DNA from: Clostridium beijerinckii
Lineage (GTDB): Bacteria; Bacillota; Clostridia; Clostridiales; Clostridiaceae
Reading direction: 5' to 3'
Length of the DNA stretch: 64,000 nt
Assembly: GCF_036699995.1 (NCBI RefSeq)
Contig: NZ_CP144906.1
Span: 2,103,501 to 2,167,500, forward strand
Part shown: positions 12,482-30,275 of the stretch, in pieces
How the letters are laid out: every line of letters begins with the position of its first letter
Numbering within the stretch: position 1 is the stretch's first letter
Notes under the pieces: model-generated
The model's database searches: none
What the model was told of the DNA's origin: nothing
Seen by the model: the letters and a program-made list of their open reading frames with translations, nothing else
Made by a program: the position numbers and the translations under genes

Positions 12482-12525
12482 TACCTAGTAATAAGAACTA
12501 TTTTTGAAAAAAAGTTAATAATATT

Positions 12526-12599
12526 CACTTATATAAATCTGATAATAAGGGTCGGATGTTTCTACCAAGCTACCGTAAATTGCTATAGGACTATAAGTG
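12526..12599 (+). ncRNA. Purine riboswitch aptamer, guanine type
   Basis: P1 is the perfect 8-bp stem CACTTATA / TATAAGTG. P2 is TCTGAT / GTCGGA with loop AATAAGG. The conserved core TTTCTACC is followed by P3 with loop CCGTAAA, and J3/1 reads GACTAT. The C in GACTA is the specificity base of guanine/hypoxanthine riboswitches (U in adenine ones). P3 is uneven, with about three extra bases on its 3' side, so this is a divergent member. No clear terminator lies before the gene at 12640. A short TAAGT/ACTTA alternative stem sharing the 3' side of P1 (12593-12606) may be part of the switch. Confidence 0.85.
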
Positions 12600-12639
12600 T
12601 CTACTTAAAAATTATATTTAATGTCAAGGAGAGATAAGA

Positions 12640-14915: not shown

Positions 14916-15064
14916 ATAGAAAGACATAAAGCAACATAAATATACAAAGATTGGGAACTGTGAAGAATTCTCTGTATTTGGGCATCTTGAGAATTTGGAG
15001 TTAATGATGCAACCCACCAATCAAAACTAATTAATTTTTTTAATTAGTTTTGATTGGTTTTTTA
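14916..15064 (+). ncRNA. Candidate small non-coding RNA
   Basis: A promoter at 14882-14909 and a very strong terminator (19-bp perfect stem 15016-15034 / 15040-15058, T run to 15063) enclose about 100 bases with no reading frame behind a ribosome site. The body can form GGGCATC...GATGCAACCC and AATTCTC...GAGAATT pairings that overlap, as in a pseudoknot. It matches no riboswitch class I recognise. It may be a trans-acting sRNA or an attenuating leader of the small gene at 15143. Confidence 0.5.
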
Positions 15065-20546: not shown

Positions 20547-20561
20547 ATAGAATGTCTTATA

Positions 20562-20761
20562 TAATATCCAAAATACCGGTACTCTAATTTTGACCCCTAT
20601 CCTTCGATAGGTGGGTGCCCTCACAGATGATTCAATCGCCTTCAAAGCCGTAAAAGGACTCATATGAAAGTACATTTCCACATCTAGATAATTGAACTCC
20701 CGTAATTTAAGTGTAGGTTCAAAATAAGAGCTTAACGAATATCCCAGAATTTATAATCAAT
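20562..20761 (-). ncRNA. ssrS: 6S RNA, copy A
   Basis: The minus strand reads ATTCTGGGATATTCGTTAAG at its 5' end, close to the 5' stem of 6S RNA (E. coli CTGAGATGTTCGCAAGC). Its 3' end, TACCGGTATTTTGGATAT, pairs back with that start through G-C, A-T and G-T pairs, making the long closing stem. Between lie TTTTGAACCTAC, CGGGAGTT and CCCACCTATCG...GATAGGGGT, all shared with copy B at 29.6-29.8 kb. The family sequesters sigma-A RNA polymerase by mimicking an open promoter. A 45-base leader with a GAACAA/TTGTTC hairpin precedes it. The class call rests on the closing stem and the duplicated structure. Confidence 0.72.
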
Positions 20762-29520: not shown

Positions 29521-29565
29521 AAAAAACCAAAAAGCCAATGCTTAATATTGTTAAGCATTGGCTTT
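29521..29565 (-). terminator. Terminator of the SRP-6S RNA unit
   Basis: Stem AAAGCCAATGCTTAA / TTAAGCATTGGCTTT (29531-29565) followed on the minus strand by a TTTTTGGTTTTTT tail. It shares its stem with the terminator of copy A. Confidence 0.88.
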
Positions 29566-29579
29566 AAATCTCTAAAATA

Positions 29580-29774
29580 AGATCCAAAATATCGGTACTC
29601 CAATTTTGACGCCTATCTCTCGACAGGTGGGTGTTTTCAAAGATGCCTCAATCGCTTTTAAAACCGTAAAAGGATTCACTCAAAAGTACATTTCATCATC
29701 TAAATATTAAACTCCCGAATTTAATTTGTAGGTTCAAAATAAGAGCTTAACGAATATCTCAGAATTAATAATCA
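29580..29774 (-). ncRNA. ssrS: 6S RNA, copy B
   Basis: The minus strand begins TTCTGAGATATTCGTTAAGC, very close to the 6S 5' stem, and ends GTACCGATATTTTGGATC, which pairs back with it. The interior shares TTTTGAACCTAC, TCGGGAGTTT, CCTTTTACGG, GGCGATTGA-like blocks and the ACCCACCT...GATAGGCGT hairpin with copy A. It starts about six bases after the SRP RNA 3' end and has no promoter of its own, so it is probably cut from a joint precursor. Confidence 0.75.
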
Positions 29775-29779
29775 AGGAA

Positions 29780-30046
29780 ACGTGCACTCATTGTTGACAA
29801 TTAACATACTTGCGCTACTAATATAGTTAGCTCAAACTAGGTTTATCCACGGCACTCAGAAGTTATCATTTACCGCTGCTTCCTTCCAGATCTGACGGAA
29901 TTCATGAGTTTCTGCTGCATGGGACCCGATTCTCAACACCACTTGTATTAGGCTGACCAAATAGATTAAAGCCTATAATGAGAATTCAATCCTGCTATAG
30001 CGGATTGCAGGTTACAGGGCACCGCTAGCTCCCCATCTAGCACGAA
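29780..30046 (-). ncRNA. ffs: Signal recognition particle RNA (large bacterial type, scRNA)
   Basis: About 267 bases on the minus strand. The Alu domain begins GTGCTAGATGGGGAGCTAGC followed by GGTGCCCTGTAACC. The conserved S-domain tip reads GTCAGATCTGGAAGGAAGCA followed by GCGGTAAATG, the Ffh-binding site. The ends pair, CGTGC at the 5' side with GCACG at the 3' side. The length agrees with the roughly 270-nt Gram-positive scRNA. The RNA joins Ffh to target membrane proteins. In most Firmicutes it lies near dnaX; here it heads a unit with 6S RNA. Confidence 0.93.
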
Positions 30047-30085
30047 AATTACTTATAATGACAAGCATTTTCTTGCCGTGAAATA

Positions 30086-30114
30086 ATAATAACATCTTTG
30101 AAGCTTATATTCAA
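30086..30114 (-). promoter_or_regulatory. Promoter of the SRP-6S RNA unit
   Basis: Minus strand TTGAAT, 17-base spacer ending ATGT, TATTAT, then TTTCACGGC. The predicted start near 30078 leaves a 32-base leader that would be removed from the SRP RNA. Confidence 0.75.
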
Positions 30115-30275
30115 GAGACATTTCCGTGGGAATTTAAGTTCATATTTGATAAGTTTGCAGTATTTGAAAAAATATTCTTATAAAAAGTTGTATGATCAGT
30201 TAGGAATAAATTATCTTAACTTGTTGAACAATAATAACGAATATGTTCATATAACTTGAGTAAGGAGTACTATTT

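Follow-up and report, generated by a model that had tools for sequence, protein, structure and literature searches.

Can a protein-targeting RNA and an RNA that controls RNA polymerase be made together, as one transcript? The question is raised by a locus in a 64,000-nucleotide stretch of the Clostridium beijerinckii genome (the window), in which a preliminary description had placed, on the minus strand, a full large-type SRP RNA, a spacer of about six bases and a 6S-like RNA, with one promoter ahead of them and one terminator behind. Covariance searches bear out the SRP RNA, which is the second of its genome (SRP2): it scores 180.9 bits against the RF01854 cut-off of 60 and covers model positions 1-256 of 256. 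The 6S RNA also gives a covariance hit, the lack of which would have refuted the description; the hit covers the whole model (RF00013, positions 1-187 of 187), but its score of 44.5 bits (E 3e-7, relaxed setting in a 1.8-kb search) falls 1.9 bits short of the 46.4-bit cut-off. The tandem 6S is absent from the gathering-threshold list because of this shortfall. The spacer is 11 nt long, about twice the length first given (Table 1). RF01854, the bacterial large SRP RNA, includes the scRNA of B. subtilis, and RF00013 includes the 6S-1 and 6S-2 RNAs of that species.

Table 1. Features of the SRP2-6S locus, and a further 6S gene, in the window.
Feature	Position	Strand	Basis
SRP2, second large-type SRP RNA	29780-30045	minus	Rfam RF01854
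SRP2 core with GGAA loop	29875-29896	minus	within the RF01854 match
Tandem 6S RNA (second type), downstream partner of SRP2	29577-29768	minus	Rfam RF00013
SRP2-6S linker, 11 nt, predicted place of the cut	29769-29779	minus	gap between the RF01854 and RF00013 matches
Predicted extended -10 promoter, TTGAAT-17-TATTAT, TG before the -10	30086-30114	minus	promoter scan and conservation
Predicted regulatory element, upstream box TTAAATTCCCA, TTACCA type with one mismatch	30127-30137	minus	recurrence at a fixed distance
Predicted leader with a small hairpin, running from the probable start near 30080 up to the SRP RNA	30046-30080	minus	sequence and fold
Predicted intrinsic terminator, 15-pair stem followed by a T-rich tail	29531-29565	minus	terminator scan
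Solitary 6S RNA of the tandem's type, 9 kb from the tandem	20561-20753	minus	RF00013, 55.6 bits

Scanning of the window unit revealed no terminator-like site between SRP2 and 6S, and the linker holds no minus-strand promoter-like site of the sigma-70-type consensus. The promoter scan returned 6 sites where 4.2 (sd 2.3) were expected from shuffled sequence; because this barely exceeds the shuffles, our promoter call rests on conservation across 12 genomes. The window promoter is conserved both in an alignment of seven units from the genus and in the consensus of 51 units, which reads roughly AATTACCATA, then CTTG.ATA, then ATGTTATTATA. The leader hairpin has a z-score of -2.0, with 11 of 200 shuffles equally stable, and for the precursor as a whole, folding predicts a structure that exceeds 99 of 100 shuffles in stability (z -2.4). 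In that predicted fold the leader pairs with the SRP part and the usual SRP rod is absent, which counts against reading the locus as a unit of two RNAs.

To place the locus among its relatives, we ran covariance models over 68 genomes from the genus and 206 from the family, followed by closer searches of two selected sets of 17 and 21 genomes. Synteny in other Clostridium genomes, which the preliminary description had proposed as a check, favors the arrangement: among the matches listed, SRP RNA followed by 6S recurs as at least 14 units in at least 12 of the 206 family genomes, in two genera. The tandem genomes of genus g1 are that of the window (G000), G002, G003 (C. beijerinckii HUN142), G007 (C. 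chromiireducens DSM 23318), G030 (Clostridium sp. LS), G048 and G056; those of genus g9 are G093 (C. carboxidivorans P7), G095 (C. magnum DSM 2767, with three copies), G096 (C. muellerianum P21), G097 and G098. At the DNA level, 225 genomes from the order were searched, with two candidate places scored in each; among the matches listed, at least 11 genomes carry a near-whole pair, all from g1 or g9, and G056 gives a partial match.

Anatomy is conserved along with adjacency. The order of extended -10 type promoter, leader, SRP2, linker and 6S is kept in 14 of 14 units, the linker measures 11-14 nt except in G056, where it reaches 22 nt, and a terminator stem of the GCYAATRCTTA type is found in 12 of the 14, G056 and G097 having another type. 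Against the RF00013 cut-off, eight of the 14 tandem 6S copies pass, five fall below and one is unreported, the second copy of G095, which we read from sequence. The unit lies between MFS transporter and aspartate 4-decarboxylase genes in G000, G002, G003, G030 and G048. In C. chromiireducens the same spot (L054:5561-8642) holds a 6S without SRP2, and the tandem of that genome is on a different contig. We reject chance adjacency of SRP2 and 6S, as 12 genomes share the order, the spacing and the promoter. Spread by plasmid or phage is unsupported: distant searches with an 801-base query matched 18 plasmid records and 2 phage records within the SRP part only, over at most 33% of the query.

The pair recurs in at least 10 related genomes, and the two RNAs are therefore likely to form one transcript. 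We favor, at a probability of roughly 0.65, a two-RNA transcription unit in which SRP2 and 6S are made as one precursor, cut apart in the linker, with SRP2 as an auxiliary supply of SRP RNA. One promoter ahead, one terminator behind and a joint precursor, as first described, fit both the sequence and its conservation. From a single start near position 30080, transcription would run through both RNAs to the single terminator, and a cut in the 11-base linker, plausibly by an RNase, would leave two working RNAs. SRP2 would then join the single Ffh protein to provide additional targeting particles, and the main RNA polymerase holoenzyme would be the target bound by 6S. The shared promoter, together with the upstream box, would set the amounts of both RNAs in the same physiological state. 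In B. subtilis, RNase III is reported to mature the SRP RNA (PMC3328962). For C. acetobutylicum, a report discusses SRP RNA and 6S within the metabolite stress response (PMC3879012), which by analogy makes a shared stress promoter for SRP2-6S a reasonable idea. The main text of a C. beijerinckii RNA-seq paper (PMC3271303) does not contain the terms '6S RNA', 'signal recognition' or 'small RNA'.

What such a unit could coordinate is bounded by the other copies in the genome. The preliminary description had supposed that linkage ties the amounts of SRP and 6S RNA together; the main pools cannot be tied by the SRP2-6S unit, because the genome contains, outside this unit, a higher-scoring SRP RNA and two more 6S matches. 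The main SRP RNA (G000:C1:5389465-5389731) scores 203.9 bits and differs from SRP2 at 71 of 265 positions. Relocation of the main SRP RNA to the tandem locus is rejected, as this better-scoring gene sits elsewhere in the genome; no tRNA was found near it (L004), and the main SRP RNA of C. magnum (L101) lies behind tRNA-Ser genes. In the single 5.55-Mb contig we found three 6S matches: the tandem copy, the solitary gene in the window and, at C1:1614892, a match of a different type (54.3 bits). The solitary gene has a promoter similar to that of the tandem and a short leader, 60 nt after the -10, in which no SRP remnant was detected. The window also carries a purine riboswitch (12509-12613) and a cyclic di-GMP-II riboswitch (14944-15027), both on the plus strand.

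Like other members of RF01854, SRP2 gives a full-length covariance match and has both the Alu domain and the S domain, with a GGAA-type core loop for Ffh. It differs from them as a second copy beside the main one, linked to 6S and on a branch of its own. A tree of 67 SRP RNAs, including 20 of the 30 main SRP loci retrieved for the genus, splits 44 main copies from 23 second copies with support of 100/99; neither this tree nor the SRP alignments include the truncated SRP part of G056. Within the promoter family, a clade of all 16 SRP2 genes lacks support (64/6), and with G097 removed the other 15 form one at 100/94. SRP2 genes of g1 nest inside those of g9, which could reflect transfer or old paralogues. 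All 21 genomes tested for Ffh, some carrying SRP2 and others lacking it, gave a single match each. A second Ffh partnering SRP2 was thus not found in these genomes, and SRP2 would share the single Ffh.

Whether SRP2 itself has work to do is where the main competing explanation departs from ours. It holds that SRP2 is a mere structured 5' leader that protects or matures 6S and has no protein-targeting role, and we consider it unlikely. In its favor, SRP2 diverges more than the main copy (SRP1) in 15 of 15 genome pairs compared, with 24 versus 8 differences of 266 between G000 and G030, 23 of 265 versus 2 of 267 between G007 and G030, and 9 versus 7 of 266 between G093 and G096. Because of this excess we count the comparison against a fully constrained role for SRP2. 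The Ffh-binding core stands on the other side, being almost invariant in an alignment of 16 SRP2 genes, and the window copy aligned to the model without loss. Pairing has also been kept while sequence changed. With the Rfam structure imposed on the 16 full-length SRP2 genes, 14 pairs are changed on both sides versus 9.3 in shuffled alignments (0 of 500 as high), slid pairings reach only 3-8, and 82.7% of cells are paired versus 80.3 in shuffles; further pair types, one of five measures, show no excess (45 versus 44.6). RNAalifold recovers 84 pairs from the same alignment, 10 of them compensatory, and compensatory changes in helix 5 again speak against a mere leader.

Relatives of the unit bear on this choice from both directions. 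Judging by sequence, each half is lost separately among them. A leader role would fit the losses of SRP2 with 6S kept. In G056 (L043:17948-18048) the SRP part is a 101-nt Alu domain with a short stem before an intact 6S, and it folds well by itself (z -2.3; 2 of 200 shuffles as stable); decayed SRP2 lies in the 6S leaders of G099 (G099_a, E 9.6e-8) and L081 (L081_s, E 9.3e-4), compared with a best shuffled E of 0.23. The same role might explain why tRNA-Leu (anticodon GAG, by ARAGORN) lies directly upstream of a second-type 6S in eight loci of other Clostridium-type genomes (L057, L063, L072, L138, L139, L143, L146 and L149), where it may be a similar helper; tRNA-Leu and 6S there likely form a second two-RNA unit. 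A mere leader would not be expected without its 6S, yet three units of the promoter family (G098, second copy; G090; G092) carry SRP2 without 6S, while sharing the -10 and the terminator stem of the tandem units, and a second SRP RNA without 6S behind it occurs in seven genomes of three other genera, g14, g15 and g18 (L107, L108, L110, L112, L113, L114 and L129). The second SRP RNA of L108 sits behind tRNA-Ser. That the long leaders of solitary 6S genes are all SRP remnants is unsupported: only 2 of 34 beat 1,700 shuffled leaders, and the remaining 32 show no significant SRP remnant (G007_a, E 1.8).

The 6S half shows comparable signs of a maintained structure. The consensus fold of the 14 tandem copies contains 55 pairs, 7 of them compensatory, and forms a long rod with a closing stem and an open central region (unpaired columns 36-52 on the 5' side); closing stem, open center and full-length covariance match are shared with the 6S RNA of RF00013. 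In contrast to this likeness, a tree of 59 rows puts the tandem type far from the canonical 6S of its own genome, with a split of 100/100 that involves only three canonical rows and a branch flagged as long. Tandem, solitary and tRNA-linked copies are intermixed within the second type, whose placement behind SRP2, behind tRNA-Leu or alone differs from that known for 6S. This tree does not show a single tandem origin: the bootstrap is unsettled, the branch is long, and the tandem label takes 8 changes, of which no fewer than 3 are forced.

Conserved upstream signals bear on a further alternative, which we regard as improbable, in which 6S is transcribed separately from a promoter, so far unrecognised, towards the end of SRP2. 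Promoter-like sites placed for a 6S start occur in G007 (10/12) and in the third copy of G095 (9/12). In the window, the sole other minus-strand match between promoter and 6S, at 29849-29820, reaches 9/12 without a TG and lies inside the SRP RNA; the scan covers the sigma-70-type consensus only. Set against these, no suitably placed promoter-like site is found in 12 of the 14 units, the window's among them, so that the scan shows no promoter for the separate start near 6S that the preliminary description had named as its possible undoing. Moreover, 34 solitary second-type 6S genes have the SRP2-type promoter 16-148 nt upstream, and since they share it, no other promoter of their own is visible.

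Related promoters precede SRP2-6S, SRP2-only and 6S-only units, and many of them share the upstream box. Allowing one mismatch, TTACCA stands at a constant distance from the -10 in 13 of 14 tandem units, in 24 of the 34 solitary ones and in 1 of the 3 that have SRP2 only. Among the seven other second SRP RNAs (g14, g15 and g18), four have an exact TTACCA at this distance, two have the box shifted by one base (one exact, one with one mismatch) and one, G121, is without such a -10. Upstream of main SRP genes (38 regions), 0 of 8 such -10 sites come within two mismatches of TTACCA, and of all 321 such -10 sites in the loci examined, units included, 27 have it exactly. This count is clearer than a comparison of promoter profiles, which alone is weak: its background contains real units, and the 99% mark is passed as well by the regions upstream of 5 of 38 SRP1 genes. 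We know of no factor for a TTACCA-type upstream box. Searching the window's own genome with the upstream-box pattern of these units gave the tandem promoter and, 2 kb apart on the plus strand, two stretches of identical sequence (G000:C1:3226287-3226317 and 3228289-3228319).

The box accompanies second SRP RNAs in genera where no 6S link was seen, which suggests that 6S genes may have taken over the SRP2 promoter. A wider interpretation, possible and offered tentatively, extends this idea. SRP2 would be an old and distinct class of auxiliary SRP RNA in bacteria, expressed from a TTACCA-box promoter of its own, and 6S would have been put behind it in some Clostridium lineages, so that the supply of targeting particles changes as RNA polymerase is parked. 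Many free-standing 6S genes would then be SRP2-6S units minus SRP2, still on the SRP2 promoter.

Least credible, and very improbable in our estimate, is that SRP2 in the C. beijerinckii-like lineage is a decaying remnant nearing loss and still read with 6S: its scores of 171-181 bits versus 202-204 for the main copies of G000, G002 and G003, and the Alu-only form of G056, point that way, but SRP2 is full length with a complete core in G000, G002, G003, G007, G030 and G048, and that of G000 differs from its two nearest relatives by only 5 and 3 changes in 266.

Pairs of 6S with another non-coding RNA are known already, and what appears to be new here is an SRP RNA as the partner; we found no SRP-6S pair in the open-licence literature searched. 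The closest demonstrated case is the 6S-1/6S-2 (ssrSA-ssrSB) precursor of B. thuringiensis, for which co-transcription is reported by RT-PCR, reporter and 5'-RACE (PMC7726162). As reported there, that locus resembles ours in having two non-coding RNAs, one promoter, a short linker and proposed processing of a precursor. It differs in that its partners are two 6S RNAs with demonstrated co-transcription (PMC7726162), whereas in our locus 6S is paired with an SRP RNA and we infer that the two are co-transcribed. In Streptococcaceae, 6S and tRNA-Lys are described in one likely transcript, another case of 6S likely co-transcribed with a housekeeping RNA; the tRNA there is downstream of 6S, whereas SRP RNA, or elsewhere tRNA-Leu, is upstream of it here (PMC8414754).

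Together, our results join a protein-targeting RNA and an RNA that controls RNA polymerase in one likely transcription unit, and describe a separately evolving second SRP RNA beside a single Ffh. The losses of either half in close relatives, and the 6S without SRP2 in C. chromiireducens, offer natural experiments on why the two would be made together. The unit also provides a possible origin for the extra 6S genes of Clostridium.
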